NCBI GenBank assembly: GCA_905160935.1 | Contig: CAJHZI010000794.1 | Location: 2,902,501 to 2,966,500 of the forward strand | Origin: Enchytraeus crypticus | Lineage: Eukaryota > Annelida > Clitellata > Enchytraeida > Enchytraeidae | Reading direction: 5' to 3' | Length of the DNA stretch: 64,000 nucleotides | Shown: piece by piece, positions 19,640 to 48,852 of the stretch | Numbering within the stretch: the stretch's first letter is position 1 | Layout: each line of letters starts with the position of its first letter | The notes under the pieces: generated by a model | Seen by the model: only the letters and a program-made list of their open reading frames with translations | Databases searched by the model: none | What the model was told of the DNA's origin: nothing | Translations under genes and position numbers: made by a program

Positions 19640-19832
19640 GCAGCAGTTAATATACCGCAGAAGCCTCACTTTTCCAAGCTGTAGGCTACACAAGGTATAG
19701 ATAAGGCATAGACTTTGTGAAGGGATTAACTTGTTGATCTAAGGAGTGCTCTTATGGAGCGAGAAAACAGACTTTGAGTATGAATATGTAGCTTGAACCT
19801 GCCACTTGGCAGTGCACTAAGGAGAGATTATA
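19640..19832 (+). mobile_element. SINE-D copy in the FGF last intron
   Basis: Lacks the head. Good match from AAGCCTCACTTTTCC to the end: AGGCTACACAAGGTATAG, GGCATAGACTTTGTGAAGGG, the hairpin CTGCCACTTGGCAG at 19802, AGTGCACTAAG and a short AG tail. Confidence 0.85.
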
Positions 19833-20291
19833 CTGCACTAGGTCGCATGTTTTCGATAGAAAGCGGAAACTACATTCAGTCAAACTGTTCTTTTTCATAG
19901 AATCGTTTTAGTGTTGATTCTTTAGTAGGCTAATGCGCACTACAGTAGGAAGTGGCTTATATCATGTGACCCATTTTATTTGCGACTTAATCTTCAGTAA
20001 AGTTCAACATCATAATTGCGATTTACTAATTGAATAACTTATTAATTGGTTGAATCGAGAAGTCAATGCTAATTTCAGTTACATTTAACACTGAGCGCAA
20101 AGTGTTGCGTTTAAAAAATTATACATAGTCTACTGCAGTTTTGCTGAAATCTGCAAATTGCATGTTAAATATCGTAGGGAATTAAGTGAAAATAAAGATT
20201 ATTGAGCTCTTTTTCTTTTCTCTTTCTTTCTTTTGTTCTCTTTTTCTTTTAGCTATTATTTTACAGTTGTGAAAGATTCATGTAGCATTAA

Positions 20292-20323
20292 TAGCATAAC
20301 AATGGTAAACTATTGTTATGCTA
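20292..20323. repeat. 32-bp near-perfect palindrome in the FGF last intron
   Basis: 15-bp arms (20292-20306, 20309-20323) around AA. The only non-Watson-Crick pair is a G-T. Confidence 0.85.
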
Positions 20324-20569
20324 GTAACACCAGTCGAATAGTTAACGAGAAAATACAACAGTGAGTGAAAACGAACGAGCCAAACTTCAGAATAATAGGA
20401 CGAAGTTAAATACGAAGAGAGAATAAAGCGCAGCATGATGATATCAATTAATTTTCAATCAGAAAAGTGACTCAGATCTTACACATATTGTCAGAGACAT
20501 AGAAAATCGTGATAAACTAAAGGACAAAAACAAGTAAACCTAATTAAGGTTAAGATGACATGGTTAAAG

Positions 20570-20697
20570 AGGCTAAGCAGGTGACTTGTTCGCATACTGA
20601 TCGACAGCGGATCAGTATAGGTGCAGGGTTCAAATCCAATACTGACATGCTATCGAGCAGGAAACTGACGATAAACTTTGCTTTAGCTTTAGCCTTT
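20570..20697 (+). mobile_element. SINE-A variant in the FGF last intron
   Basis: TRNA-like head with GGGTTCAAATCC as B box near 20626, then a variant body (ACTGACATGCTATCGAGCAG) shared with the copy at 42440, ending TTTGCTTTAGCTTTAGCC. A subfamily distinct from the commoner GGGCTCGCCCGTC type. Confidence 0.7.
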
Positions 20698-21709
20698 AGA
20701 AAAAAGAATAAGATTGCAACTAAGCTGAAGGTGATATAATAGCCTGATCGATTTCAATTGACTGTTTCTCTCCATGTTCGGGTCATAACAAAAAATTTTA
20801 ACGCGTCCGCAACAAAAACTTTTGTAGTTTGTTAAAATTATTTTTGCACAAAACAAGAAGTCAGCTTTGGTCACTTTAAAATATTTAGAAAATATTTCAT
20901 AACTGAGGATTATTGATTAACAAATCAATCAATCAATCAACGAATCCATAAAGATACAGCGTCAAGTTCCTCGCCAAAAGGAAAAATTAAACAATACAAT
21001 ATTGAACATAAAAATTTCTTATATTCATCTTAATTTCTTAATTTCATTTATTCCTTATCAAAATGAATAGGAAAGTAAGATAATCTGAGAATCTAAAGAA
21101 AAATTGTTTCTCTAGATTCTGTGCTCTTTTTTAGTCTACTACATTTTATATACTTCAGAAAAAATTCAAAAATGGAAATAAAAATAAGTTAACTAGCTGA
21201 CGAACTACCTCGTATAGTAAATATTTTTTATGCTAACAAATAAACTAAAAGTAGCTGATCCTAGTTGTTAGCTAGTAAGTAGCTAACACATAAAATAGCT
21301 GATCTTATCGAAATAAGAAATCTTTACTTGGAATAAAACTTTAGAAAGAAGAAACAAGTTTTGACCCGTCGTTAGATATGCCTTAACTTCAAAATTCAAA
21401 TAAATAAAATACTCAGAAATGGTATGACCTTATTCGCTGAAATTATTCGGCAAAAGGACTAAATTCTTTTGTGATTTATTTAAAATTGCATCGAAAGCGG
21501 CTAATTTAATATTTTTCAACCTGATTGACAACAGCCGGCGAAGCATCCAATCGACAAAGACCTAAATATACATATTGGTTATGAGAAACGCGTGATGATA
21601 AAGAATAAACTACAAGATGAGAGGTTAACAATGAAAAATGGATGTCATAGATCACGATTATAACTATTGTTGATCTGAGATTTGCTATGGGTCTGAATGC
21701 AGGTTTCTA

Positions 21710-21860
21710 TGACACTTAGCCCGGTGGCACGATCATCTCCCCGCCTAGCTATTAGGCCACCTGGGCGGTCAGACCGCTTAATAGGGGCGGCTGGACGGCT
21801 CGAAGGCTCTCGGGCCGAGATGAGACAGATAAGAGCCCGACAGCTTTGTAAGCTGTCTTC
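21710..21860. other. GC-rich island in the FGF last intron
   Basis: A 150-base stretch far richer in G and C than its surroundings, with CCGCCTAGCTATTAGGCC and GGCGGCTGGACGGC. It yields overlapping open frames on both strands, so neither is convincing. Could be an old mobile element or a regulatory element. Confidence 0.4.
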
Positions 21861-21986
21861 ATCGACGCTTCTGCCATTAACAGTCAGTGACGATATACTT
21901 ATAGTCGTGATGAATATTCTGTGGCCACAAAAGTTGTTGAAGTTGTGGAGATGCACATTGCTACTGTAAACGCTGGTTTACTTAAC

Positions 21987-22260
21987 TAATGGCAGGATTT
22001 CTCTCTCTAGTGTTCTAAAATGGCACACGTCCAAGGTACATATTCCTACTCACATGCTGCTTTCACGCTGCATAAGAAGCACACCATCGATTGACGAGTT
22101 AACCCCTTCGCAAATGACTAAGCCTTTTCCTCATCTTAATGTAGCTCATAGCTTTGAAAAAATATGGCCTTTCAGGTGGTTTCCCGTTGCCTTCCTTAGT
22201 TCCATGATGGATCAACTGCCATTTAATCCTGGGGAAAAATTTTCATGGTGAGGTGGATCC
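21987..22260 (-). mobile_element. SINE-D copy in the FGF last intron
   Basis: Near full length in reverse: (TC)n tail at 22000, degraded hairpin, then the whole body to the core (GGTTTCCCGTTGCC on the plus strand near 22180) and the ATTTAATCCTGGGG head. The flank TAATGGCAGGAT matches the flank of the LINE-1 copy at 45313. Confidence 0.82.
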
Positions 22261-22551
22261 CCTCTGTCTTTCTCACACACCCGGGCTCAACAAGGGGATG
22301 GACGTGCTTAATTAAATTAAATCAATAAAAAGCGAATATTTCTGACGTTGGTGAGATGTTAGTTATATCACGGGCATTGAGCTACCTGCAGAAAATCTAG
22401 CTCAATTTAAATCCAGTCGAACTAAACGCTTTGGTAATTTCTAAGAGTTCATTGAAATATTGAATTTCGCAAAAATTAGGGCATTTAAAATATGCGCGCC
22501 TGTGTGCTCCTCAGTTACGTTATGTCTAGATTGTGAATAAATGCTGAGTAA

Positions 22552-22553
<2 letters not shown>

Positions 22554-22612
<59 letters not shown>

Positions 22613-22613
22613 G
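22554..22613. repeat. (AG)n microsatellite in the FGF last intron
   Basis: Nearly pure AG dinucleotide run. Confidence 0.95.
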
Positions 22614-22674
22614 ATACTTAAATAATAACGAAAAGAGAAGACACCGAAAGAAAATATCTTCGCCACTCGCCTCA

Positions 22675-22686
22675 AGGTGGCGCTAC
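22675..22686. promoter_or_regulatory. CTCF-like motif in the FGF last intron
   Basis: AGGTGGCGCTAC resembles the conserved CTCF core. Single motif, by eye. Confidence 0.25.
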
Positions 22687-23387
22687 AACAAATTGCCGAC
22701 GACAAGTTTATAAGTCCGCTTCGTTTACAGTCACCTGCTGATATAAAAGGAACAAATCTGACCCCACAAAACTTAGCCTAAACCCGCCTCCGCACACACC
22801 CCTTTCTTCTCCCCAATGTCCCAAATGATAAAAGCGTCGTCTACAATCGTTTTCATCTAATCATGGGTCATGAAACAGACGTCAACAACATGTATTTGTA
22901 AAGAGTTCTTAAAAATTGTTCTCTTGACTCCAATCCTTGTTGCAAATATAACTCAAAAAAAAGTTCGTAGTATGGCCAGTTGTCGTCAGTAAGTAATTAA
23001 TTAATTCTACTCTCTCTCTCTCTCTCTATCTGTCTGTCTCTCTTTCTCGTGCTTATTGCGAAAGTCAAGTCCAAGTCTCGTACTTTGTTTATACTCCTAT
23101 GATAATCCTTCATTACAGCTTTCGAGAAAGTACAAAGAGAACAAATTAATTCCGTGGCAAAATCTTCGCCTTCGTAACATTTTAATGTAATGCTTAATTT
23201 AGAAAAATGCAATTCCTGGGGTGGTTCCATTGAGGGTCGTTCCAATGAATGTGGCTCCAAATGCCTACTTCAATATCCACGATAACTGTTTCTTAAATAT
23301 TCGAACATGCCTCTAGTTAGTACTTGTTGTTTTTCATTATAATGTCTGCAATCTAAATAAATAATCAAATGGTAATAAATCTCTTAC

Positions 23388-23494
23388 CTGAGCTCTAAGT
23401 TTTCCGTTTGACTTGAAGCAGATAAACTTTTCTGATTTTTCACCCCGGATTCGGATTTGACTACCAAAGGAAACTGTTTCCACGACGAAACGTC
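23388..23494 (-). CDS. fgf8/17/18: FGF8/17/18-like growth factor, middle exon
   Basis: Exon of 107 bases, two bases plus 35 codons. It encodes RFVVETVSFGSQIRIRG followed by EKSEKFICFKSNGKLRAQ. This is the diagnostic FGF8/17/18 block, equivalent to the vertebrate stretches LIVETDTFGSRVRVRG and YICMNKKGKL. The acceptor on the minus strand is TTTTTTTGACAG before GACGTTTC and the donor is CAG/GTAAGAG. The first two bases complete a Gly codon split with the preceding exon (phase 1), and the exon ends on a whole codon (phase 0), which joins in frame to the last exon. The Cys in FICF matches the conserved FGF core cysteine. The exon is too short and too internal to show up as an open reading frame. 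Residues 109-143 of the joined partial protein. Confidence 0.9.
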
Positions 23495-24207
23495 CTGTCA
23501 AAAAAACACAAGAACTTAAAACATCTGAAAATAAGAAGCAGCTGTAAAGATGATGCTTCTAAATGTTTGCTACAAACTAATGTAAAGATAATTGTAAGTT
23601 AAAGAGACTAGAGGGGATTAGGCTGTCACAAAACATAATTTTTGTCATTAGAAATTTCATTAATTTTAGTTTTTCAGGTTAGACAGCCACGTTGCCAGCT
23701 CATTTACCGTATTTGCTGAAGATCATCGCTTCAAATTGCAGTCTGACTATATCAGGTATTATCGCTAATAGTACGCAAGAAGACTTTTAGATTCTCTCTA
23801 CTTTTAAATTTATTTTATAATTATATAATTTATTACTGAAAGCATTAATGACTGATTTAATTAATTAATTAAATTGTTATAAAAAATTAAAAAATTAGTT
23901 AAACAATTAACGAAATTATTAATAAATAAATAAACAGATATATAAATAAATAAATTAATTTGTTAATTAATTAATTAGTTAAATTTTAATTAAAGAAAGA
24001 ATGAAAGAAAGAAATAATGAATGAGTGAGTGTAATAACCGTTTTATTTTTGTAAAACGCCGAAACATAGAGGCACATAAAACTGTAGGTAAATTGAATTC
24101 TGTCAGAAACACCTAGCCTTGAACAAAAGATAAAGTGGAAATTATATTATTATAGTATTATTGTTTATAACTTTTCGTTCACTGTTATAAACAGTACATA
24201 CCACATA

Positions 24208-24238
<31 letters not shown>

Positions 24239-24334
24239 TATAAGAAATTAAAGCTATATTGCTAATACTAATATTTGTAAATTAAATTATAATTAAATGG
24301 AAGAAACTGCAGCATATGCAAGAAATTTAGATAC
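23495..24334 (-). other. FGF gene intron between the N-terminal and middle exons
   Basis: Phase 1 intron of 840 bases, very AT-rich, with TTAATTAA-type runs around 23850-24000 and an ATT/AT microsatellite at 24210-24242. No repeat family or extra exon recognised. Confidence 0.8.
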
Positions 24335-24656
24335 CGTGTAGATCGTCATGGGAAGCCTTAGCGGAGACCAGACTTCCGTGCAAGCTAACATGACCTCCGG
24401 AGCACCTGCTGTAGAGTCGATACGTTCTGACCACCCGGGGTCCCGTGTCCCTCTTCTCTCTCTCCTGCTCGTATCCCGGCAGCGCCTCCGAGTCCTGCTG
24501 CACCACGGAGCTACTCCAGCGTCCCGGATCTCTTCTCGGCGAGTCCTCGTTTCCACCCGGATTTTGTCGGTAGTAAGGTTCTCGATAGCCTTCCAGCAGC
24601 GCTCTCTCTCGATCAACATGATTTCTGTGTCTGACTGTAGCGGTCTGTCCCGTGAC
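24335..24656 (-). CDS. fgf8/17/18: FGF8/17/18-like growth factor, N-terminal exon after the signal peptide exon
   Basis: Exon of 322 bases encoding 107 residues plus the first base of a split Gly codon. It begins VTGQTATVRHRNHVDRERA, recalling the start of the second coding exon of vertebrate FGF8 (VTVQ...HVREQ). It ends with VVRTYRLYSRCSGGHVSLHG and KASHDDLH, matching the FGF8 stretch RTYQLYSRTSGKHVQV. Between these lies a hydrophilic extension rich in Arg, Glu, Gln and Ser. REKR at residues 66-69, just before the core, is a possible furin-type cleavage site. The inferred acceptor is TTCCTCTGTATTTAG and the donor is CACG/GTATCT. There is no ATG in this frame, so a separate upstream exon with the start codon and signal peptide is needed. 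The exon is clearly more GC-rich than its surroundings, which also creates long shadow ORFs on both strands. Confidence 0.85.
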
Positions 24657-24775
24657 CTAAATACAGAGGAATTTGTTATTTTGTCAACAGTTTTATTTGT
24701 TTCACGTTTTAGCTAATTTTCTTTAAGTTTTCATACAGTTTGCTTCAAAGTTTGCAGCAAAGTTTACATCTTCCT

Positions 24776-24812
24776 TATATGAGGAAACGGACGTTAAACC
24801 TTTATTATTATA
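24776..24812 (+). repeat. LINE-5 type short end with (TTA)n
   Basis: ATGAGGAAACGGACGTTAAA followed by CCTTTATTATTA. The same end recurs at 46000-46036 (plus) and, reversed, at 53048-53088 and 29573-29612. Confidence 0.55.
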
Positions 24813-24885
24813 GTTTATTTATTATTTGCATTTCATTAACGTTAAGCTTGTTTAATTCAATGTAAGTGATAAGTTAAGAAAATAC

Positions 24886-24888
<3 letters not shown>

Positions 24889-24921
<33 letters not shown>

Positions 24922-24962
24922 GAGAGATCGAGAGAGAGAGGGAGAGAGAGAGGGAGAGAAAG
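24889..24962. repeat. (AG)n microsatellite upstream of the N-terminal FGF exon
   Basis: AG run with ATCG and GGG interruptions, about 230 bases upstream of the exon on the minus strand. Confidence 0.95.
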
Positions 24963-25506
24963 AAAAGGAAAGAAAAAGATTTAACAAAAAGAATTGCATG
25001 TCACTTAAGCAGAATGTAACTGCATGAAGAATTCAACATCACTCCCATTGATTTGCAGAGATCTTGTTGACCGAATAATAAAACGCTAGACTATCGTTTA
25101 TCACTGTGAACCGAGAATAAATTTACGTAATTGTTTGAGAAGGTAGACTTGTTAGGTGAAGGCTATTTGTTTAAAAGTCTAAAGCACGTCTTTCTAGTGA
25201 ATCTAATACGAGAAATTCCTTAGCTTATACAAGCAAATTCTTTTACATCAAATCAAACTACCTTAACTAGTGATGTGTTTTTAAAGTGCTTTATTATATA
25301 ATCATTTGCCGACTGATATTTAAACTGTAAATTTGCATTACAATGACGTCACTAGACAAAGGCGATTTCATCGCTTAAATCTTGAGGGATTAACGTTCTT
25401 ATTACAAACATCGAGTAACACAATTCTAAAACTTATACAATGTCATGTAGAATGCGCTATCGCTCACTCTCCCTCTCTTACACACTCACTAGAGTACTCG
25501 AAAATG

Positions 25507-25558
25507 ATAGATACAAGGTATATATTCTTACTCATGTTCTGCTTTCGCCATTCGAGTG
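25507..25558 (-). mobile_element. SINE-D fragment
   Basis: Short stretch matching the tail-proximal part (plus strand ACAAGGTATATATTCTTACT). It abuts the SINE-A copy at 25561. Confidence 0.5.
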
Positions 25559-25560
25559 GA

Positions 25561-25690
25561 ACCAATGACGATGTCGGTAAGATGTTCGACCGCGGATAAG
25601 TATGTGCGGGGTTCAAATCCTGGGCTCGCCCGTCATTGGCATCGCTTTCAAGTGAGAAAACTGACGTTAACATTAGCTTTACCAGCTTTT
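25561..25690 (+). mobile_element. SINE-A copy, nearly complete
   Basis: Head ATGACGATGTCGGTAAGATG (A-box region), TTCGACCGCGGATAAG, B box GGTTCAAATCC, the CTCGCCCGTCATTGG block and the terminal CATTAGCTTTACCAGC. Confidence 0.85.
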
Positions 25691-26104
25691 CATGTTCAGC
25701 AAGCGGTTGTATCTAACAGTATGTTGATCCCATTATCTAGGCAAAGCTTTATTTTAAAAAACCTAAATTTAGCCGTTAGCTTAGAAAATAAGCTTCAAAG
25801 ATAAATCCCCTTTGACTTCAGCTAATCCTTCTCAGTCGCCAATTACGATATAGTTTGGTATTACAATATAGCGGTTAATATAAATATATAGAAATGCAAC
25901 AAATTTACTAAGAACTCAGACAAAATTTAAGGGATTTACCCACTCCTCCCCTATTAGCGACGATATCTACAGTATTTAACGATGTCACGCAGAATTACGA
26001 GGTTAGTGAAAGATCCACCTGGCGGTTAACTTCTAACACCATTGAAGACTTTTATATCAAACCTTTCATAACAGAAAAGGTAATGCCCCTGTTAGAATTC
26101 AATT

Positions 26105-26620
26105 TCTCTCTCTTGTTGTACTGCCTATTAGCAGGTCCATGGCACAGTAACTCCTCTAAAAAATTTTATCCTCCGCTTTATTCTTCATATCAACAGCGAA
26201 TTAGTTAATTAGTTATCAAATCACTCACCGACCCAAGTCTCAGTTTTCCTATAACATTTTTCCTTCCATTCTTCCTTCAGTTACCTCTTTTAGTAAATCA
26301 TTTCCACTCGGGAGATGACCCATCGAGTTTTTCTATCTATTCCTTATGATACTTATCACTTGGATATTTACGGTAACTCTATTAGCACTTCTTCGTTCGT
26401 AATTTTGTCAGTCCACTTGATCATCTCTATTCTTCTCCGAAGCCACATTTCGAAAGCTTCCAGTCTTCTAATATCTTCCTTTCTCAACTGCCATGTTTCT
26501 CAACCGTACAGTAGCTTGGTCGGCACTAAAGTCCTAACAATCTTTATCTTCTTGAATTTCTTAAAACTTTTGGTAGTAAAGCTTTCCTCTTACAGAAGAC
26601 CTCTATTGCTTGAACAATTC
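26105..26620 (-). mobile_element. LINE-1 3' half fragment
   Basis: On the minus strand the C-terminal LINE-1 coding region can be followed with many breaks, from the WTLRKEDI-like area near 26490 to the final hairpin CTGCTAATAGGCAG at 26121-26134 and an AG tail at 26105-26113. The hairpin stem carries a mismatch here. Confidence 0.8.
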
Positions 26621-26907
26621 TACATTTTACTTCTGTTCCATATTTCCCATCTTCTGTTATCCAAAATATATTTATAATATAGATATAGTTTTACCATAAA
26701 TCAAGTCAAGCATTCAACGCTGTCTCGACAAAACCACAATATTTCACGACTGTTTCCTCAACCAAAGTAATTAATTAAGTAAGGAACGCTAAGCTAATGA
26801 TTATAGGCACAGCCTATACTTTTAGCAGATAGAGTTTGGTAGCTAGGGGATACATATTATGATTCCAATCTTAAAGATGTCTAAATGTCAGCTCGATGTA
26901 TTCTAGT

Positions 26908-26955
26908 GGCTCGACGAGCGCCTCTCATGACAGAGGTCCGGTTCAAAGGCACGTC
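26908..26955 (+). mobile_element. tRNA-like remnant, probably another SINE head
   Basis: TGGCTCGACGAGCGCCTCTC resembles an A box and D arm, and GGTCCGGTTCAAAGGC resembles a T arm. No acceptor-stem pairing seen. It leads straight into a GGTCGGTCATAATAA minisatellite. Confidence 0.4.
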
Positions 26956-26959
26956 GGTC

Positions 26960-27215
26960 ATCATATTAAGGTCGGTCATAATAATAAGGTGGGTCATAAT
27001 AATAAGGTGGGTCATAGTCATAAGATCGATCATAAAATAAGGTCGATCATAACCATAAGGTTGATCATAAAATAAGGTCGATCATAATAATAAAGTCGGC
27101 CATAATAATAAGATCGGTCGCAATAGTCATCATATAAGGGTCAGTCATAATAGTAAAGTCATAATAATAAAGTCATAATAGTAAAGTCATAATAGTAAAG
27201 TCATAATAGTAAAGT
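26960..27215. repeat. GGTCGGTCATAATAA-type minisatellite
   Basis: About 17-18-bp diverged units, shortening to 12-bp AAAGTCATAATA units at the right end. Confidence 0.85.
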
Positions 27216-28369: not shown

Positions 28370-28440
28370 GAGAACCGAATTTGAATCCTGCACCTCTTGA
28401 TCCACAATCGGACAACTTACCGATATGCAAACGTCTCAGA
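28370..28440 (-). mobile_element. tRNA-like SINE head, probably SINE-A related
   Basis: On the minus strand: ATCGGTAAGTTGTCCGATTG, TGGATCAAGAGGTGCAGGAT and TTCAAATTC, matching the spacing of the SINE-A head. The body does not follow. Confidence 0.45.
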
Positions 28441-28712
28441 CCACATTTTCCTCAAACACAGTTAACGACATGGGATTCGAAATTTCAGACGGATGCTTGC
28501 AAACAACTTATTCGAGTGACCAGGTCCAAAATTTAAAAGTTATTAGTCCCCGAGCCGTTAATTAAAAATAAGATATTGCACATAATACATGAAATTTTGT
28601 AAAATATAAATCCAAGTGTAAACATTCTCAAGTTGGGTTTGATCAATGCATGCATATTACATTAGAATAATAGAAAGGTTTATATTAACAATACTATAAA
28701 CCTTTTTTAAAG

Positions 28713-28920
28713 TTTTTATTGTTCTAAGGTAAAACGAGGTCAAAGATGGCAGAATGGAAAGAAAGAGAGGCAGAGGCAAGCCGAGATTAGGAATTTCGGA
28801 TGATATAAAGATTCACTCGTATGTGGAGATTAAGAGAAAAGCGAAAGACCAGGAAGTGTGGAGGCGTTATATGCATTGGATCTGCCAGTAGGCAGTGAAC
28901 TAAAAGAGAGAGAGATTAAC
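28713..28920 (+). mobile_element. LINE-1 3' end fragment
   Basis: Degenerate C-terminal coding (KERQRQAEIRN, then RRYMHWICQ) followed by CTGCCAGTAGGCAG, TGAACTAAA and (AG)n. 5'-truncated. Confidence 0.8.
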
Positions 28921-29612: not shown

Positions 29613-29662
29613 TGGAATCTATAAAGTTAGGCCCTACTTATGTATTTGTATAGTGTTTTAAA

Positions 29663-30682: not shown

Positions 30683-30691
<9 letters not shown>

Positions 30692-33924: not shown

Positions 33925-34079
33925 ACTTGGTAAAGCTGGTAAAGCTGGTAAAGCTAGTGTTAACGTCAGTTTCCTCACTCGAAAGCGATGTCAGTGACGG
34001 GCGAGCACAGGATTTGAATTCCACACATACTGATCCGCGGTCGAAAATCTTACCGACATCGCCACTGGCTCCAGCCAAT
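33925..34079 (-). mobile_element. SINE-A copy, nearly complete, with tandem 3' terminal units
   Basis: In reverse: GGCTGGAGCCAGTGGCGATG (A box), GACCGCGGATCAGTATG, a B-box-like ATTCAAATCC and the body. The last nine bases are repeated three times (GGTAAAGCT units on the plus strand, 33929-33955). Confidence 0.87.
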
Positions 34080-35136: not shown

Positions 35137-35522
35137 TGTCTTAATCTCTCTCCCTCTCTATCTCTCTTAGTGCACTGCCTATTGGCAGGTCCTCCACATA
35201 TTTCTATCCTCTGCCTTACTCTTCATATCAACGTATGAATTAGTTATCAAAACATCCAACATCTCAAGTTTCGGTCTTCCTATAGCCTTTTCCCTTCCAT
35301 TCTTCCCTCAATTACTTCTTTCAGCAAACCATTCCTTCTCATGATCCATCCAGTTCTTCTTTCTATTCCTTATGATATCTAGCAATTGCCTCTTTATGCC
35401 AACTCTATTAGCACTTCTTTGTTCGTAATATTTGTCAGTCCATTTGGTCTTAATCGTTCTTCTCCACAACCACATTTCGAATGCTTCTAGTTTCATAATA
35501 TCCTCTTTTCTTAACATAACTA
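35137..35522 (-). mobile_element. LINE-1 3' fragment with inverted foldback at its truncated 5' end
   Basis: Minus strand encodes MLRKEDIMKLEAFEMWLWRR and WTDKYYEQRSANRVG from 35517 down, then RKKNWMDHEKEWF. It continues out of frame to CTGCCAATAGGCAG, AGTGCACTA and an AG-rich tail reaching 35137. The 5' end stops at a perfect 14-bp inverted repeat. Confidence 0.83.
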
Positions 35523-36016: not shown

Positions 36017-36285
36017 TTCCCCAAGTTTTGTCCGGGTTGTTTGAAGATTAGACCAGCTTGAGTCTGCAAGTGTCTTAGAAGGCGACTAATGCCCTAAGAT
36101 CCAAACTAACGTCAGAAAGGGCATTCGGTTGGTGAGCGCCTAGACCCCAAAATTGCTGCAAAGGTTTTCAAAACGAATACAAGGGATTGACTGGGACAGA
36201 GAGGAGTGAAAAAGGACTCTTCGTATCCCGACCCTAGTTAAACTGGGATTAAAGGGAAGACGATGATAACGACGATGATGAGTTA
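36017..36285 (+). mobile_element. LINE-3 type 3' end
   Basis: Same blocks as at 12.9 kb: CAAGTTTTGTCCGGGTTG, GTGTCTTAGAAGGCGACTA, AACGTCAGAAAGGGC, TCGTATCCCGACCCTAG, then an interrupted GAT/GAC tail. Confidence 0.75.
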
Positions 36286-39274: not shown

Positions 39275-39345
39275 TCTGAGACAGTCTATTCGTATCCCGA
39301 CCCTAGTTAAACTGCGATTCAACGGAAGATGATGATGATGATGCA
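39275..39345 (+). mobile_element. LINE-3 type 3' end, terminal piece
   Basis: GAGACAGTCTATTCGTATCC, CGACCCTAGTTAAACTG and (GAT)n only. Confidence 0.7.
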
Positions 39346-39599
39346 TGAAATAATAAATAATAATATAATATAAGGAATGTAAAGAGCTTCCCAAGTGTAA
39401 TTGCCCAATGCCTTTTAAGACTATGAATGCTAAATTTTGTTATCATATTAGAAAGGAGAGAAGCAAAGTAGCTTACTGAATCTTGCTACTACAATGATGT
39501 CGGGATTTTTAATCCGTTGTATCTAAACCGGCGAGATGTCACTGCTAAAACAGTCAATAGTAAATAATCCATCTTCTGTTCAAATTTGAACTTTCATTG

Positions 39600-39600
39600 C

Positions 39601-39649
<49 letters not shown>

Positions 39650-39805
39650 TTCAGTGCACTGCCAAGTGGCAGGTTCAAGGCACATATTCATACTCAAAGT
39701 CTGTTTTCTCGCTCCATAAGTGCACTCCTTATATCAACATGTTAATCCTTCACAAAGTCTATGCCTTATCCATACCTTATGTAGCCTATAGCTTATAGCT
39801 TCATT
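39600..39805 (-). mobile_element. SINE-D, truncated, with a long (AG)n tail
   Basis: Plus strand shows (TC)n at 39605-39645, then CTTCAGTGCACTGCCAAGTG and the body up to the AGCCTATAGCTT block. The head and core are missing. Confidence 0.85.
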
Positions 39806-42439
39806 GTCTATATATTCGGATTATTCAAATAGGTTACTCTTTGACCTCTTTTGATTTGTATTTGTTAAAGCCTGCACAATTAGTTGTCGTTATTTCACAG
39901 AGTTTACGAATAATTAAATCTAGACAGAATTTTTTCACAATATTTCTTAAATCAATTTTCTCTTGAATTAGTCTCGTGACCTTCTAAAAAGGTTTTTGTG
40001 CAAAGATTGAATAAAAAAATAAAGGAAGACAGTACAAAGAATTAATGAATTCCCTAATTGCGACATCTATGAAATAACTTCAAACCTAATTCACCGAAGC
40101 TAAGGATAGAATTCATGCCCTTAGTTAATTGCGTATGTAGTCTATAAAATACTGAGTTGACGTTTATTATACAGTATATAAAGTAGTCAGCTAACAGTAC
40201 ATCCTTTTAGTAGCTTTTACAGGCAGCCATGAATCCGACAAATTTTACTCAAATTTCATAATTCGGATTTCCTATAGCTTTCAATTTAATAAGTAAAACA
40301 CCTTTTAATTAAGTTTGTAGGCCCTATTTGCACACATTTGCTCAACACTTCAAAACTAAAATAGTGTTAAATTGGCTGTTAACACCATAAGTAACATTTG
40401 TTACTTGCTGTTACATTAATCTCTGTGACGGTAGCTCGAGTATGTCGAGTATGAAGAGAAGCCTTGTGCTTCTGAACATTGACGTTAAACACACTACAAC
40501 CTACTTCAAATCTTCGTCATTTCTCATCGACATGCGGATAGACTGAAGAGAACGCTAACTTCGTTTGATGTATACTGTATATTCTTCAAACAAAAAACTG
40601 GAATTATCTAATTCCATCTAAAACTACTCACTTACTTTATATAACACAAACTAGACAAGCTGGTCTCCATACAATTGCAATATTTCTCACTCGTAACTTT
40701 CGTAACTAAATTGATCCGCTATTTAAAGGCAACAGGCACGCAGACGCAGGCATAGAGAGGAAGGCACAGGCAGACATAGAGACACGGATAGGTGCAGAGA
40801 AAAGGTGCCGACAGAAGGGTGAACTGCATCGCGATGTTGTGAGGTGAGACACACACGTAGATTAGTTAATAGATTTCAGTAAGAGTTACATGGGGTTCTC
40901 TTCCCCGATAATATAAGAGTGGGTTCCTCTCTATAAAATAGAGTAAAGGGGTTTCTTTTCCCGATTTCAAAATAAAAGTAAAATGTAGTTACCCCCGAGA
41001 AAATAAGGGCAAAGGAAAAAATAGATCAACGTCATCTCTTTCGCAAAGTACAACCTATTACAAGGAAGTGGATATTCATTGTAATATCCAGCACTTTCAA
41101 TACTACTCGATTAAACAATTCTCTAATGTTTGCCTTGTATGTAGCTTTGTAAACTATTAAGTGCAATTAGGTTTATTATGAATAATTATACTACTGGAAT
41201 GCTTTTAGAATCAACCATAAAACAGAAAGTTGCCTTTAATGTTTTCTGTAGTAATTATAATATTTATAAATATTATTATATTAATTAATATTAACAATAT
41301 CCATTGCCAAATCAATTGAGAAAATAACTATATTTGATTTTTATTGCAAATGATATGATCTCTTTATATTCCAAGGGTGACGTTATGTTATCAGGGAGCT
41401 TAAATAATAATATTAACACACCTAATTGCTCTGAATTGTTTGGACGATATTAAGAACGAAGCGTTCTGCTCGGTGTTGACAAATTTTCGTTATAGGTCTA
41501 AACGTGGAAAAACGTCTTTAAAAGAACAAAAGAGCAAAAGTGTCTATGCCGAATTTAGAAAACTGGAGACAAAAATTCAAAACTGAGGCCCAGACGGCAA
41601 AAGGTCGACAGAGGAGAAACATATATTTTGGAGATGGCGTGAGATAATATAAAAAGTGAATTCTAATTTCGAAGATTGGTGACAAAGGATTTTAGCACAG
41701 TTTAGCGTCACGCCCATACGGCACTAAGTTGCCCCTTGCGGTGGCAACAGAATAAAACCAATAATATAATTAATTAACATGAAATAAGATCACTTCTTAC
41801 ATCGCCTTCTATTTGAATGCACGTCTACTGTTCCCAATATCCTATTGGCTTAAGCCATTGAACAGTGTAATTAAATGCATTTTCTAATGAATAGCATTTT
41901 ATGATTGAAATTTGTTCAATGTATGATCGAGTCATACTCATATTTTTAATGTACGAGGTACTTACCATGTATCACGATAATGATATTAAATTTCTAAGAA
42001 GTGACATGTGAGACTTTGGTTAATACAATGTCACTAAATTGAATACAGTCGTAGTGTTAACATAGGAATACCAATTCGCGTCTTCGCCTAGTACTGTTTG
42101 AAATAAAAGTGACTTTCAGCTGACGATATTACTGGAAATCAATTCAATACCTGGAAAAATAATTTTTTATTCTAAGGTTCTCAGTTTACATACAGCTACT
42201 AGCAATTCAATAACGGCATATATTATAGTCCCTATTAACACTGACTAACCCCTAAACATCACCTAAACATGACCACAACTTACTCCACCCCTAATAGACC
42301 CCTAATCTTGAACGAGCTTAAAATAAATAATAGATGTAAATTTAGCATGGTGGATGGCATCAAGCCAGGATTTTAAAATAACTCATAAATATATTAAGCT
42401 AATTTTATTATTCTTTTATTTATTACATGCCGACTTGCT
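39806..42439. other. no feature recognised
   Basis: 2.6 kb with no repeat family I can name. 40740-40990 is purine-rich with CAGGCA/CAGACA units and three GGTTCC/TTTCCCGAT-like blocks (40890-40970). Confidence 0.5.
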
Positions 42440-42570
42440 TGCTAGCAAGTTGTTCGGTTTGTTCGAAAGTGGATCAGTAGATTCAGGGCTCAAATCCAGC
42501 GTTCTCTCCGGCACTGACGTGCTATTCGAGTAGGAAACTGACGTTAAACTTGACTTTAGCATTTAGCTTT
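42440..42570 (+). mobile_element. SINE-A variant
   Basis: Same variant body as at 20570 (CACTGACGTGCTATTCGAGT, then AGGAAACTGACGTTAAAC), with a decayed head and the B box GGCTCAAATCC. Confidence 0.7.
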
Positions 42571-42717
42571 CTTACAAATTAGGATAGTATTAAATTCACT
42601 TTCATAGCGAACATTTGAATATTAGACACGCATATTAATATAAAATAAGTAATAAATAAAACTCATAGTACTTTTAAGCTATTGCATCATTAATTCTAGT
42701 TAATTTGTAGCCATTCT

Positions 42718-42810
42718 ATACAGTGGTCAGCAAAATAGCACTTTCAAAGTGTATATTTCTACTTGAATCTGCTTCCGATTTGAGTAAGACACAATCCATC
42801 GATTTCAATT
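42718..42810 (-). mobile_element. possible ancient SINE-D fragment
   Basis: Weak match to the tail-proximal half in reverse (AAAGTGTATATTTCTACTTG, then an AATCTGCTTCC-like block). Low similarity. Confidence 0.3.
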
Positions 42811-44248
42811 TAACTTAGGATTTATCAGTTATCCCCTGAAGATTTATTTCTCTCGCATTCACCTTCTGTGATAAAGAAAGGACCTATTTGTTTCTCTGTG
42901 ATGGAATGCTGGTCTAATACAAGAAAAATTAGAAAATCTCAGATAAACTCAGTTATAAGTTGCATACAAGGGAAGCAGAAACATGTGTTCTGAACTCCAT
43001 AATGTTTAAATGTATATAAATTAAGACAATCTCCGATATCCTTTTGATAAAAAATTAAAAGTGACAAATTAATGTAATATAATTGCTAATATCGACTTTT
43101 CTGTAACTTTACTTGTATTGCGGATGCCTACGGCTGCACTCATCGTGACTTTAGCGACACAATTTGTTTGCACACTGCAAGTTTCAAAGGGCGTGAGTAT
43201 CACCGCTTTTGATCTATATTTGGTAATTAGGTCTCTATTCCAGTGGAATTTATTATTCCAGGTATTGTCATGTCAGATGATTCACGATTCACAAGGCAAA
43301 ACGGTACAGTCATTTAATGAAAAGTTTAAATTCAATTTAATTCAATTCAGTTCAATTTAAACAAAATAAAACGTAAGTTACTTGGATCCTGCATTTGTTA
43401 AATATTAAAGGACTAGGTAATACACAAAAAGTTATTTAAAGCGACTTTTTGTGTATACTGTACACTGTATAGCTTTACGTATTTTGCAGCTAAAACGAAA
43501 ACAATAATGAAATGTTCAAGGCCGAAAAAGATGTAACAAAATAACAGCACGCATGATTGCAGCATAAAGTATTTTAAAAAGTAAAAAAGAATTTTTAAAA
43601 TCTAAACACGAGAAATAAAATAAAGAGGAGCAAATAGTAATAAACTCAATAATATAAACTTTTAAAACCATACTAGCTGTTAAACTATTCCTAAGCTACA
43701 ATGGTTTAATTCCTGTAAAATATTTGTAATTAACTATAATTTGTGCACTGCAACTTGACATCTTCACAAATGATAAGAATTGTAAAATACCTCCATGCCT
43801 ATCAAGAATAACACATTTTTTAAATAACATATAAACAAGCACTTAATTGAACAAAATAAATATTATTAAAATGTAAGTTAGTATTAGAAAGTTAGTAAAA
43901 CTTAATTAGCTTTTATTTCTAAATCGCAACATATAATATGTAGGCCTACGTAATGTAAATAAATAACAAGTATTAAAATATGCAAGCAGTCTATATTTTT
44001 ATGCATTTAGTCGCACTTATTTTCATCAGATTTCCCTGGAATATATTACAATACTTAAAGAAGCAATTGTTTTCAAACGAATGTAATGGCAGTCAAAAAA
44101 ATTCTTTAAATTATTACTGATCTCCGGGCTGTTGCAGAATTGAACAAACGTTTTCTGAGAAGGCTTTAAAAGGCGGTTAAGTTAGAAATGATGAAAGCAA
44201 TGGTAAAGCCATCTAGAAGCAATATTTTCAAATTAAACATATACATAT
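42811..44248. other. no feature firmly recognised
   Basis: Contains a short hydrophobic open frame at 43124 followed by a splice-donor-like GTGAGTAT (see findings). Otherwise AT-rich. Confidence 0.4.
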
Positions 44249-44350
44249 AGGCTGCTTGATACCGAGATAACCTTTGTGATGGGGGCAACCTGTTGATTGA
44301 AGATTTGACTTTTAGTGAACATGAATTCGAATAGTAATATGAGCCTTGGA
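44249..44350 (+). mobile_element. possible ancient SINE-D fragment
   Basis: CTTTGTGATGGGGGCAACCT then GTTGATTGAAG and AATATGAGCCTTGGA follow the order of SINE-D blocks with many changes. Confidence 0.35.
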
Positions 44351-44384
44351 CATAGCATATACCAGAGCATTAGGAAATTCTATA

Positions 44385-44425
44385 TATATACATGTATATG
44401 TATGTATGTATATATATATATATGC

Positions 44426-44505
<80 letters not shown>

Positions 44506-44550
44506 TGGGAGAGAGAGGGAGGGAGAGAGAGAGAGAAAGAGGAGAACTAG
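44385..44550. repeat. compound (TA)n(GA)n microsatellite
   Basis: TATG/TA run to 44463, then GA run with GGGA interruptions. Confidence 0.95.
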
Positions 44551-45051
44551 AAAATAAGTTATAGTAAGTAACAGCAGTTTAATTCATATTAATTGTTTTT
44601 CAACTCATCAGCAAGAGGTGTAGATAGTGCATTTAAGTAGAATTGGGGCTCTGATAATCCTAATCCAGGGATTACTGATGAACTAACTCATAATAGCCCT
44701 TGTTTATTTGCTCAATGCACGAGTAGTTGCTTTAAGAATCGTAATATTCTGAAAAAATGAATGTTGAATTGTTTAAATTCTGAAACAGGTCGATATTAAA
44801 AGTTACTCCCTTCACATTTCTGGCCCAGGTAAATAGTTGAGGTATTATTATGTCTTATCCTTGGCAATCAGTGTCGTACGTTTTCAGCTCTTTCAAACCC
44901 TTAGTGAATTTTATTAGAAAATAAATTGTTATTATATTGTTCATCTCCACGGTAGATTATAGATCAAAAGAGTGATTGAATCTAGTGAGCTCATATTCGT
45001 TCCAAAATGAGCGATGCTCTTAAATCTACAGTGCTTATCAAGAAAGAAAGA

Positions 45052-45220
45052 GCGCCTTGGCTCCAGAAATTGTTACACAAATTTAAACGAATGGAAAAGT
45101 CTCAAATACGGGATTGGCTGGAGGTGTGGTGTAGGACAGAGAGGATTTGAGACAGTCTATTTGTATTCCGACCCTGGTTAAACTGGAATTCAAGGGAGGA
45201 TGATGATGATGGTGATGGTG
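45052..45220 (+). mobile_element. LINE-3 type 3' end, truncated
   Basis: Starts at GCGCCTTGGCTCCAGAAATT, then TGGAGGTGTGGTGTAGGACA, TTGTATTCCGACCCTGG and a GAT/GGT tail. Confidence 0.75.
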
Positions 45221-45322
45221 ATGCTTATGAAGAAAAACTTTTAAAAGTGTTTTGCAAATTATCTAAATATAGGCCTACATGCTTAATAGTTAGATGCAAA
45301 CTGGCATCTGCGTAATGGCAGG

Positions 45323-45760
45323 ATCTCTCTCTCTCTCTCTCTCTCTCTTAGTGCACTGCCTACTGGCAGATCCGTGGCATACAACGCCTTCACTCTCCTC
45401 TGTCTTCCACTTTCCTCTTCATTTCCACATATCAGTGGGTCTTTAAATCATCTAACATTCCTAATCTCGGCCTGGCTCTGACTCATTTTCCCTCAACTTT
45501 TCCTTCTATGTCCCCTTTTGGTTGACTTTCCTCATTAGAATATGTCCTATCCAACTCTTCTTCCTATTTCTTAATAAATTTATCAAATGTTTATCTCTAT
45601 CAACTCTCTCCAGAACGTTTGCATTTGTAACCTTTGAGTCCAGCTAAACCTTTCAATTATTCTCCATATCCACATTTCTAATGCCTCTAGTTTCCTAATA
45701 TCTTCCTTCCTTAAGGTCCATGTTTCACATCCATATAATAGCATGTTGATATACTATTCT
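45323..45760 (-). mobile_element. LINE-1 3' fragment
   Basis: Plus strand begins with (TC)n, then TTAGTGCACT and the hairpin CTGCCTACTGGCAG. On the minus strand degenerate coding runs up to the CETWTLRKEDI region near 45730. 5'-truncated. Confidence 0.82.
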
Positions 45761-45999
45761 TTCTTGGGGTTTATGCTTCTGACGAGGTGGGCCCTGTATG
45801 CCTCCTTCCGCTTAGATTAACATTTAATAGGTAGGGGCGTCATTCCCTGAGAAAATTATCCTGTTTACCCAAAATAAAAGAAAACCCACAAATAAAAATA
45901 ATTTTTTAAATTATATAATCTTTGAAAAGTAAAATATATATTTCAAATTATTATTATATATTATATAATTAATTATTATTCACCAATTCTACCTTGTAT

Positions 46000-46036
46000 G
46001 AGGAAACGGACGTTAAACCTTTATTATTATTATTAA
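46000..46036 (+). repeat. LINE-5 type short end with (TTA)n
   Basis: ATGAGGAAACGGACGTTAAA and CCTTTATTATTATTATT, nearly identical to 24776. Confidence 0.55.
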
Positions 46037-46519
46037 AATGATATAAAATGTCTGAAGTTGATTTGAATCACTAACAACGTTTTCTAGGTGTGGCAACAAT
46101 AAGAGCAATGCAGGAAATATCTTAACTATTTCACTTATTTAGCGAGATAGTTTCTTTTATGAAATGCTTACTGACCCGGCTATTTTCGTGGGTCGTTATT
46201 AAAATATCCTGCTATATTTACTCCTTAGTACAGACCTGGCATCTACGTCACTGTGTCAGGGCCTTGTTTTTAGTCGGAAAAACTTCATCCACACGGCAAA
46301 CATTTGGAATATTTCTAAGCTATACTCTAAGTGATTAGCCAACGGGTGTCAAAGCGTTGATAAATCCGAAGAAATGCTATATATGGTAAGGTATAGGTGC
46401 TGTATTACGGTTGTGTTTCATGTCGAGTGTTTTATTAATAGAGCGCTATAACCGCATGGATTAAGATAAAGTCTTACCTGAATTATTGAATTTTAAATAT
46501 TTATTGCATTTTACACATA

Positions 46520-46840
46520 TTATACACGCCTTTCTTCATTTTTAAAATTCCATACCTCTTCAAAGTAGTTCGCAGTGTGGATTTTGCAAAATTGAGAATA
46601 TAACCTACCGATAACTGCACGATATCGTAATTCGCTAATGATGCTGATTTGATAGTGAGGCATCAAAATTAAGATCAAATTTCTGCCCTTTAGAATAGTT
46701 GGTCCTCTATATTTTAGACTTGCAGTGTCTAGCCTCCTAAGCTGGTTGTGGCTTTCAGTAACTAAGCTAGATGGTGTGATTTGTTTGTTCACTAAGCGCA
46801 AATATGGCATTGCTCTTAGAACTTCGATTTCTAGGTACAA
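46520..46840 (-). other. unassigned 106-codon open frame
   Basis: A frame of 106 codons starting MYLEIEVLRAMPYL, longer than most here and not a simple repeat. I recognise no family. It could be remnant mobile-element coding or chance. Confidence 0.15.
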
Positions 46841-47173
46841 TTATAAATTGATGTCTTTATGCCGCTGAGGCAAGTTAATTTTAAATAGATTCATTATGGG
46901 GATTTAATTTCAAAAATACTTGAATAACTATATTTAAATCAATACGTTTAATTATGATTCTTAGCCGAAAAATCGAAATAATAACGTCTTTATATAAAAA
47001 TAAATCAAAGTTTTAAACTCCTTAAATCGTTGCTTTGAGTTGATTCAACGCATTGTATATTACGTATGTATTGCAATGTTGTCTATTTTACACTTCAAAT
47101 TCACATTCATCACCATCTTCATCTTCCCCAGAATTCCAGTTTAATTAAGGTCGAGATCAGAAAATTGTGTAGT

Positions 47174-47310
47174 AATTTCTGGAGACTAGGCACTCACCAA
47201 ATCGAATGCCCTTGTGGCGTTGGTTTGGATAGTAGTGCTTTGTCGCTTTATGGCAAGTGCAGTTCAAGATTGGTTTATTCTTCAGCAACCCGGGCACAAC
47301 CGGGTAAAAT
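47174..47310 (-). mobile_element. LINE-3 type 5' part of the repeat, reverse
   Basis: Plus strand ATTTCTGGAGACTAGGCACT, CACCAAATCGAATGCCC, GTTGGTTTGGAT and CAACCCGGGCACAACC mirror the first half of the plus-strand copies. The (GAT)n end is absent. Confidence 0.6.
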
Positions 47311-47586
47311 TTAATTTCACATCAATAACACAAAATAAACAACGAATGTGTCCAGGAAATTAAATCAGATTAAACACATTTTATAGTGAATTGATCATCC
47401 GAGATGATATCTATAAGATTTTTTTTAAATGTTTATATTCGTAGTCCAATTTTGATTAACGTTCAACTATTATATTAATAAAATCTGTAAAAGTCAGGGA
47501 TTCCAGTCTCTCGTTGGGAGTTAACCCTATCTATGTAAACATTAGATGTCAGTTATAGATACATTTTTTAACCACATGTTGATTAC

Positions 47587-48852
47587 ATGAATCAAGAAGC
47601 AGTAATCAAAATCAAACAAGAATACTCAGAAGAAGGTGAAATAGGACGTGGAGTAAGACAAGGTTGTAGCATTTCGCCGCTGCTGTTTAACATTTACGCT
47701 GAGGCAATGATGGATGGAGCCATGGAAGACTTGGAAGAAGGATTAAAAGTAGGAGGGAATTTGTTACAAAATGTACGATTTGCAGATGACCAAGGAATGG
47801 TAGCGGGCAGCGAGATTGGATTGCAGAAGATAATGGATAGGCTGAATGATACGGCCCTAAGATATGGCATGAAGATTAATATAAAAAAGACAAAGGTTAT
47901 GAGAGTGTCCAATAATAAATGTGAAGTTAATATCACAATAAATGGTACGAAATTGGAACAGGTAAGGAGTTTCAAATATTTGGGTCATACTATAACCGAT
48001 GATGAGAAATGTGAGACGGAAATATGCAGTGGGATTGCACAAGCAAAAGCGGCCTTTGGTAGTAGAAAAGAACTATTAACAAAAAGTTTAAAGAAAGACA
48101 CAAAAAGTAAAGTAAACACGCATTATAGTGACATGATCAACTATGTTGATATCTATCGCTTTTTAATACCACATGTTTATACCGTTAGGCAATTTATTCC
48201 ATTTTCCGTGTAATCAGCCTAGTGAATGTTCGAGATTTTACTCTCTGATCAGCGCGGCTGGGATTCGAAAACATGGACCTTAAGGAAGGAAGATATGCAC
48301 TGCAGTTCAATTCACCTCAGGATCTGTCATTTAAAACTTCATGACGTTACCCCTACGCTATTAAGACATTGAAATAAATTAATAGACATTTAAATAAATT
48401 AAAAGATAAAGATAGTGAAAACTTCGGTTTGGACCACGCTATTGTATGGGTGTGAAACATGGACCTTAAGGAAGGAAGATATTAGGAAACTGGAGGCATT
48501 GGAAATGTGGATTTGGAGAAGAATGGAGAGGATTAGCTGGACCCAAATGGTTACAAATGAGGAAGTGCTGGAGAGAGTTGGCACAGACAGACAGTTGATA
48601 AATGTATTAAGTAATAGGAAGAAGAGATGGATAGGACACATTCTAAGGGGGGAAGGTCTATTAAAGAGGTCATAGAAGGTAGAATTGAAGGAAAAAGAGG
48701 CAGGGGCAGGCCGAGATTAGGTATGTTAGATGATTTAAAGACCCACTCATATGTGGAAATGAAGAGGAAGGCGGAAAACAGAGAAGAGTGGAGGCGTTAT
48801 GTACCATGGACCTGCCGGTAGGCAGTGCACTAAGAGAGAGAGAGAGAGATTA
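47587..48852 (+). pseudogene. LINE-1: 5'-truncated non-LTR retrotransposon with reverse transcriptase, broken by a SINE and a frameshift
   Basis: The frame from 47587 encodes the C-terminal half of a non-LTR reverse transcriptase. It shows motif B (GVRQGCSISPLLFNIY), the catalytic FADD of motif C (FADDQGMVAGS), INIKKTKVM and the thumb-region KYLGHTITDD. The frame runs into a SINE-C inserted at about 48103-48413 and ends there at 48213. LINE coding resumes at about 48411 (TSVWTTLLYGCETWTLRKED, then WIWRRMERISW and WIGHILRGEGLL). It changes frame near 48650 and continues to GKRGRGRPR, REEWRRYVPWTCR and a stop. The 3' end has the hairpin CTGCCGGTAGGCAG, then AGTGCACTA and (AG)n. A stop at 47569-47571 in the same frame suggests the 5' truncation lies near 47575-47586. 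GATTAC occurs at both ends (47581 and 48849), a possible short target duplication. Dead copy. Confidence 0.88.
48103..48413 (-). mobile_element. SINE-C inserted in the LINE-1 copy, carrying a 28-bp piece of LINE sequence
   Basis: On the minus strand: an A box TAGCGTAGGGG near 48348, a degraded B box (TTCGAATCCC), then CCGCGCTGATC and a tail matching the copies at 37.7 and 58.4 kb. Flanks read AAAAGTAAAG on the left and AAAAGATAAAG on the right, an imperfect target duplication. Bases 48269-48296 are foreign to the SINE and identical to LINE bases 48455-48482. See findings. Confidence 0.8.

Follow-up and report, generated by a model that had tools for sequence, protein, structure and literature searches.

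The stretch of DNA analysed here (the window: 64,000 nucleotides (nt) of Enchytraeus crypticus, assembly GCA_905160935.1, contig CAJHZI010000794.1, positions 2,902,501 to 2,966,500 of the forward strand) carries copies of a short interspersed nuclear element (SINE), SINE-D, and of a long interspersed nuclear element (LINE), LINE-1, together with a related LINE subfamily, LINE-1b, and two further SINEs, SINE-E and SINE-T (Table 1). SINE-D and LINE-1 end in the same 5-bp hairpin, CTGCC-N4-GGCAG, followed by a short conserved terminus and an AG-rich tail, and a previous reading of the sequence alone had proposed that SINE-D is mobilised by LINE-1 through this hairpin. Our analyses indicate that SINE-D is very probably a non-autonomous retroelement of about 365 nt, whose end of about 34 nt and AG tail match those of an abundant LINE clade and which is copied in trans by the LINE protein.

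All nine hairpin sites named in the sequence-only reading were found, either exactly or as a near variant: eight of the nine contain exact CTGCC-N4-GGCAG 14-mers, and the site at 26121-26134 on the minus strand has CTGCT in one arm. As that reading had stated, the 5-bp stem is kept and the four-base loop differs, being ACTT in SINE-D and AGTA, GGTA or AATA at the LINE sites of the window. Its claim of a common palindrome, AGTGCACT, was borne out at six sites (19811, 3060, 39653, 35169, 45350, and 48824), while three LINE sites have altered forms, which read AGTACAAC at 26134 and are given in Table 1 for 12670 and 28882.

In the assembly that contains the window (524 Mb, 802 contigs), the pattern CTGCC-NNNN-GGCAGTGCACT had 18,468 matches and the reversed pattern none. 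These are the exact matches to CTGCCNNNNGGCAGTGCACT, 9042 + 9426 on the two strands, and AGTGCACTAAGAGAGAGAG was matched at 3511 + 3468 places (control 0). Among the first 100 CTGCCNNNNGGCAGTGCACT places listed, counted by hand, the loop was AGTA in 65, ACTT in 20, AATA in 3, and different from these in 12. A scan of IMG/VR for the tail returned no matches.

Copies of SINE-D that were found by their body only also carried the motif. This search used a 140-nt body and a pool of 341 kb, consisting of the window and the loci L009-L048, which had been fetched around LINE tails and not around SINE-D; matches that fell short of position 115 were dropped, 23 remained, and one of these ran off its locus, leaving 22 testable copies. 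The motif was present at the expected place (at most 5 mismatches over 14 fixed positions) in 12 of the 22 copies compared to 1 of 78 control places, the sole positive control place being a LINE-like end at L043 5967, and the remaining body-found copies showed at most decayed forms of it. Without the window's own 7 copies, some of which led to the finding, 8 of 15 body matches carried the motif.

The common end extends beyond the hairpin. SINE-D occurs in two forms, an older one ending in AACACT and a younger one ending in TGCACT, and directly upstream of the stem SINE-D and LINE-1 share the 14 nt TATRTACCWTGGAC. We compared the upstream regions as majority strings, typed by eye and aligned from the right, with 2000 shuffles for each comparison. 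The older SINE-D matched LINE-1 over these 14 nt with a score of 10, which none of the 2000 shuffles reached, and the younger form matched over the same 14 nt with a score of 8, reached by 2 of 2000. For LINE-1b, 10 (older form) and 29 (younger form) of 2000 shuffles scored as high as the comparison with SINE-D; for LINE-C, another LINE with this hairpin, the numbers rose to 92 and 545, reflecting weak or no similarity. The proposal that both families have a common 3' end and AG tail is thus well supported, with a common end of about 34 nt (14 nt, stem and loop, and TGCACT) plus the AG tract; what the short non-coding element and the LINE have in common at their 3' termini goes beyond a simple repeat. 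The accompanying statement of otherwise unrelated bodies is correct, except that the sharing is not confined to the hairpin, as TATRTACCWTGGAC is common to both as well.

Copies of both families show the varying 5' cuts and flank repeats that target-primed reverse transcription gives. Extents aligned from the 3' end ranged from 26 to 1163 nt for the LINE and from 50 to 246 nt for SINE-D, some of them bounded by the pool rather than by a true 5' end. Flank repeats were scored in 54 of 55 anchored copies (L010 was left out), with the expectation taken from swapped flanks. Repeats of at least 8 nt (range 8-18) were found in 18 of the 54 copies, from both families, compared to 1.83 expected, and repeats of at least 10 nt in 13 copies compared to 0.2 expected. 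5' truncation and target duplications are clear for the LINE; for SINE-D 7 copies were tested, and 3 of them had flank repeats of at least 8 nt, one of these weak (8 nt, AT-rich). In the SINE-D copy at L014, a repeat of at least 11 nt, CTAGCCTTCTA, was recognised by eye when the true 5' end was used. In 15 of the 18 copies the downstream repeat begins where the AG tract ends, indicating that the AG tract belongs to the insert. These results bear on the explanation that the shared end arose by chance or by microsatellite convergence, with elements inserting into pre-existing AG tracts. AG tracts are indeed frequent next to the copies, but in those 15 copies the insert includes the tract, 14 further bases are shared upstream, and both the abundance of the 20-nt motif (18,468 compared to 0) and its presence on body-found copies (12/22 compared to 1/78) rule this explanation out, leaving it a negligible probability.

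Table 1. Positions of retroelement copies and of a reverse-transcriptase frame in the window
Feature	Position	Strand	Remarks
SINE-D, young type, 5'-truncated	19654..19818	+	hairpin CTGCC-ACTT-GGCAG 19799-19812; AGTGCACT 19811-19818; 93% identity to the 3060-3306 copy
SINE-D, young type	3060..3306	-	hairpin 3066-3079 (loop ACTT), then GAAGAAGAAGA tail; 5' limit set by alignment only
SINE-D, young type	39653..39794	-	hairpin 39659-39672 (loop ACTT), followed by GAAGAGGG(AG)n; by eye, flanked by the repeat ATAGRCAATGAA (imperfect)
SINE-D, older	8393..8584	+	ends CTGCCACTTGGAAGAACACT; terminal AACACT, not AGTGCACT
SINE-D, older	22026..22260	-	hairpin decayed; AACACTAGAGAGAG end retained; terminal AACACT, not AGTGCACT
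SINE-D, older	2356..2523	-	CTGCCACTTTGAAG, hairpin decayed; terminal GCGCATT, not AGTGCACT
LINE-1 3' end	48812..48831	+	hairpin CTGCC-GGTA-GGCAG 48812-48825 and TGCACT, then (AG)n; TAG 48819-48821 closes reading ...MKRKAENREEWRRYVPWTCR*
LINE-1 3' end	45350..45369	-	hairpin CTGCC-AGTA-GGCAG 45356-45369, TGCACT and (AG)n
LINE-1 3' end	28882..28901	+	hairpin intact 28882-28895 (loop AGTA); palindrome altered to AGTGAACT
LINE-1 3' end	12670..12689	+	hairpin intact 12670-12683 (loop AGTA); palindrome lost (AGTGGGTA)
LINE-1b 3' end	35169..35188	-	loop AATA, hairpin 35175-35188
LINE-1b 3' end	26115..26134	-	one stem arm altered: CTGCT-AATA-GGCAG
213-aa open frame with reverse-transcriptase domain	47572..48213	+	Pfam RVT_1 E=2e-15
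SINE-E	12899..13184	+	SINE-D-type 5' head module; different 3' end CCCGACCCTRGTTAAACTGGGAT...(GAT)n; internal comparison, outside the pair
SINE-E, second copy	about 36017-36275	+	SINE-D head, (GAT)n end
SINE-T	33962..34077	-	tRNA-like head; tail of its own (TTAGCTTTACCAGCTTTA) that lacks the hairpin; used as internal comparison
SINE-T, further copies	54892-55008, 25557-25668, 61228-61337	+	TTAGCTTTACCAGCTTTA-type repeat ends

The LINE encodes a reverse transcriptase whose reading frame ends inside the hairpin. From its position and orientation, the reverse-transcriptase frame of the window is probably part of an interrupted LINE-1 copy that ends at 48831; this sequence gave 14,747 candidate places genome-wide, 150 of which were scored. 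At locus L069, a naturally open frame of 659 amino acids (aa; 1028-3007) is closed by a TAG at 3005-3007 within the hairpin at 2998-3011. The LINE reverse-transcriptase domain matched Pfam RVT_1 (1.4e-31), and the nearest solved reverse transcriptase was human LINE-1 ORF2p (2.4e-32), with R2 scoring weaker (6.6e-18). An upstream piece of another LINE copy, at L070, matched an endonuclease with E=0.03, below the Pfam cut-off, and we take it by its motifs to resemble an apurinic/apyrimidinic (AP) endonuclease. In LINE-1 the final two bases of the loop and the opening base of the 3' arm spell the TAG, and this stop is followed by 10 nt (GCAGTGCACT) and then by AAG(AG)n. LINE-1 loops mostly end in TA and SINE loops mostly in TT; a stop codon in the hairpin would explain this difference, the SINE loops being free of coding.

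Together, these data suggest that the LINE protein, a reverse transcriptase probably combined with an AP endonuclease, most likely begins target-primed reverse transcription on RNAs ending in the shared sequence, and SINE-D would in this way be copied in trans. Both families have the 3' end and the AG tail in common and show varying 5' ends and flank repeats, while two other SINEs, one of them with the SINE-D head, carry different tails; from these sequence patterns we infer that SINE-D is moved by the LINE enzyme and that the LINE belongs to this clade. SINE-D and the LINE represent a real and new pair of a known type. The probable use of the LINE enzyme by SINE-D would be ordinary parasitism, in which the unusual detail is the position of the hairpin over the stop codon of the LINE.

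Several observations speak against this interpretation or parts of it. Beyond the 14 nt upstream of the stem, the similarity between SINE-D and LINE-1 is merely suggestive. The junction to the tail reads ACT-GAAGA in young SINE-D (3,506 places) and ACT-AAGAG in LINE-1, and among 100 listed GAAGA places, counted by hand, none had a LINE-type loop ending in TA (84 had ACTT and 16 another loop). Three of the 18 flank repeats (L026, L035, and L042) do not begin where the AG tract ends, and in one SINE-D copy there is a gap of about 45 nt between the upstream repeat and the aligned 5' end. Since L009-L048 were fetched around the LINE-1 tail, the LINE copies in the pool are not random and lean young. 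In addition, five folded tails were no more stable than their shuffles (z -1.49 to +0.48), and a LINE relative at L049/L050 has a loop ending in TA though its reading stops upstream of the hairpin. The overlap with the stop codon is therefore not universal, and the stop codon does not account for every TA loop.

The difference at the junction means either that the SINE changed there on its own or that a relative of LINE-1 serves as its direct partner. Where the sequence-only reading had named LINE-1 as the mobilising element, the shared end, the truncation, and the flank repeats make this LINE clade the most likely source, and it is LINE-1 itself as the direct partner that the GAAGA junction and the missing TA loops among the 100 listed places call into question. 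Several LINE relatives end in the same hairpin, namely LINE-1b (loop AATA), L067 (TTTA, junction GGAAGA), and L049/L050 (ATTA, AACACT). L049 and L050 are identical stretches around a LINE-C end on contigs C50 and C61, and represent a duplicated stretch or an assembly artefact. We consider it less likely than not that another LINE of this clade, and not LINE-1, serves SINE-D. The SINE-D-specific GAAGA junction would fit such a partner, as would the existence of these relatives and the agreement of the old SINE-D terminus AACACT with L049/L050 and of the young terminus TGCACT with LINE-1. However, an ACTT-type loop occurred in 0 of 67 LINE-class copies of the pool, a classing that itself partly used loop letters, and upstream of the stem SINE-D resembles LINE-1 most and LINE-C weakly or not at all. 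The hairpin motif followed by AACACT had 854 places, and among the 100 listed the loop ended in TA in 9: three of these are LINE-1 with altered letters, two are one duplicated LINE-C sequence, and four are SINE-D-like, so that the case for an older AACACT LINE partner comes down to one sequence. The shift of SINE-D from AACACT to TGCACT parallels LINE-1, and a SINE following its LINE would look like this.

The timing of the two families may agree as well. Over the 60 nt before the motif, median divergence was 5.0% for young SINE-D (8 copies) and 8.3% for LINE-1 (55 copies), compared to 24% for old SINE-D (16 copies) and 26% for the LINE-1b class (14 copies, including two misclassed ones). The activity of young SINE-D may thus have coincided roughly with that of LINE-1, bearing in mind that an exact tail was used to fetch the LINE copies. 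At L024 (about 3032-3110), a LINE-1 and a SINE-D copy lie tail to tail in opposite orientation, and the SINE-D flank repeat AATAATATCAT adjoins the AG tract of the LINE.

Whether the enzyme would recognise the hairpin as a shape or as a string of letters is a separate question. The stem letters are identical in every family seen; covariation between families can therefore not be scored, and we discarded stem covariation as a structural proof because a stem that is constant between families makes it uninformative. Among individual copies, 99 from the pool were selected by the motif, of which 93 were used after exclusion of five in class 'other' and of the 26-nt LINE remnant L015+2941. At the five stem pairs, these 93 copies contained two double changes, one of them still paired, compared to 1.41 doubles expected. 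The pattern CTACCNNNNGGYAGTGCACT had 626 places, and the matching GGTAG was present in 7 of the first 100 CTACC copies listed, a hand count to which no CTGCCNNNNGGTAGTGCACT baseline can be compared. The proposal that the hairpin as such is the recognition feature was thus not sustained: the stem is invariant, the covariation check gave no clear signal, and the conserved letters alone would explain the data. We grant slightly less than an even chance to the alternative that the enzyme reads primary sequence (approximately GGACCTGCC....GGCAG..CACT and an AG tract) and that the inverted repeat is incidental. The constancy of the stem letters across LINE and SINE variants, with no compensatory change between families, points in this direction, as do the unremarkable folding energies and, weakly, the conservation of unpaired bases beside the stem, most of which belonged to the motif used for picking the copies. 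Conversely, the 5-bp stem is present in the centroid fold of each of the five tails, and the 4-nt spacing of the arms is kept as the loop letters change, although this spacing was fixed by the search pattern and is not independent evidence. A reading of the hairpin as a shape is only possible; if it is recognised at all, this must be via the stem and its flanks, and recognition of sequence fits the data equally well.

A more specific version of hairpin recognition builds on the stop codon. If the hairpin is built across it, the terminating ribosome would release the new enzyme at its RNA site, favouring its own mRNA, and SINE-D would mimic the hairpin without the stop, offering a site that is never covered by ribosomes; recognition would be by the constant stem and flanks, with the loop free. 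We regard this scenario as improbable. Were the overlap functional, translation termination would be coupled to the choice of template, which might account for the preference that LINE proteins show for their own RNA.

Long copies of SINE-D extend upstream into a head module of about 80 nt, from which the length of about 365 nt follows by our own arithmetic; among three long copies only, those at L033 and L047 are similar from the same point and that at L014 begins about 27 nt further in. The head had no Rfam match and no tRNA was called in it, in scans that also missed the tRNA-like SINE-T and are therefore insensitive here. Its best matches to A and B boxes had 3-4 and 4 mismatches, compared to 1 and 2 in SINE-T. 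These features leave a minority chance, of roughly one in three, that SINE-D is a non-autonomous LINE derivative, composed of a LINE 5' end and a LINE 3' end, rather than an RNA polymerase III SINE, comparable to Bov-A2 and RTE1-N1 as they are listed in the part of PMC3747384 consulted. Apart from the poor boxes and the lack of an Rfam match or tRNA call, it would agree with the head module being common to SINE-E, as either a common promoter or a common LINE 5' end would be. On the other hand, the insensitive scans lessen the weight of the missing tRNA and Rfam matches, and the head was not found in the LINE stretches of L069 and L070, which stop short of the true 5' end of the LINE.

SINE-E and SINE-T served as internal comparisons. 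The head of SINE-E scored 29 in a local alignment with old SINE-D (maximum of 12 in 500 shuffles) and 17 with young SINE-D (maximum of 13), its 3' terminus is CCCGACCCTAGTTAAACTGGGAT followed by (GAT)n, and the copy at 12899 has AAAAAGATATTRAGC on both flanks, as judged by eye. SINE-T is abundant, with 10,243 genome-wide places for a 33-nt pattern with three free positions. Heads and tails are thus variously combined in this genome, and among SINE-D, SINE-E, and SINE-T the hairpin tail is particular to SINE-D. A tRNA-like SINE with a LINE tail at L015 and L016 was considered as a second client of LINE-1 and rejected. As the other printed SINE-T copies mostly end in their own AGCTTTA-type tails, we instead read both loci as very short LINE-tail insertions in or beside SINE-T, which are accompanied by the flank repeats ACTTTTA and TAGAACTA, the latter identified by eye. 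Very short LINE-1 inserts were also seen at L014 (about 2939), L039 (about 3729), and L047 (about 6689) and, including L015 (about 2941) and L016 (about 2990), have extents of 26-53 nt, with L016 shorter by eye. Inserts of this kind, consisting of hardly more than the shared tail, could seed new tailed elements.

Elsewhere in the window, self-comparison revealed a long degenerate tandem-repeat array at about 17905-18711, with approximately 80% identity, and the minus strand contains a 234-aa open frame at 62383-63087, presumably from the reverse transcriptase of another retroelement, given its FADD motif.

Very many copies and natural variants exist on both sides, including two SINE tails (AACACT and TGCACT), several LINE loops, and two SINEs with the same head and different tails. 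These variants constitute a good natural data set for what the LINE enzyme reads in its template. Sequence-string searches of the openly licensed literature returned nothing, and in word searches of it we recognised, from the listings and the passages cited here, no publication describing this pair. In the same searches we saw no report of the stop codon within the shared hairpin or of the pattern of a constant stem with a free loop, and both merit specialist attention.

A comparison with described SINE/LINE pairs, as the sequence-only reading had suggested, places this pairing among a kind known from many animals and plants; in the part of PMC3747384 consulted, 58 SINEs share their 3' end with a partner LINE. 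In Helicoverpa armigera, the 43-bp 3' end of the SINE HaSE1 is 82% identical to the end of the LINE HaRTE1.1 (PMC3272025, in part). Here as there, SINE and LINE share an end, the LINE has a short 3' untranslated region (UTR) and target duplications, and the tail is a simple repeat. Unlike SINE-D, HaSE1 has a tRNA head, HaRTE1.1 ends in TGA repeats, and the parts of PMC3272025 compared contain neither a hairpin nor a stop-codon overlap. Lepidoptera RTE elements also resemble the LINE: after the stop codon they have a 14-bp 3' UTR that contains simple repeats, they occur as truncated 3'-end copies, and their target duplications measure 6-12 bp, or 20 bp in one named element. They seed microsatellite families (PMC2887409, in part). 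They differ in their repeat units, words starting with hairpin or stem are absent from that text, and the portion compared is without a partner SINE. The very short 3' UTR and dinucleotide tail of the LINE recall the RTE clade (sections of PMC2887409 and PMC1291365), a likeness by description that does not establish membership. Bov-B with Bov-tA and Bov-A2 is likewise comparable by description, since the table in PMC3747384, as far as seen, lists SINEs with a Bov-B tail of which one has a tRNA head and one a head from the LINE 5' end.

The closest parallels for a shared 3' stem-loop are ZfL2-1, ZfL2-2, and UnaL2, whose tails are common to LINE and SINE and in which the stem-loop is needed for copying (PMC4176376, in part). 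According to the same excerpt, copying of ZfL2-1 fell dramatically when the loop was exchanged, and about half of it remained when the stem was. The elements described here show the reverse of ZfL2-1, a member of the L2 clade, since LINE and SINE have different loops but identical stem letters. They equally reverse a plant LINE lineage in the part of PMC3747384 consulted, which conserves its loop and shows compensated changes in its stem, whereas the E. crypticus pair combines constant stem letters with a variable loop.

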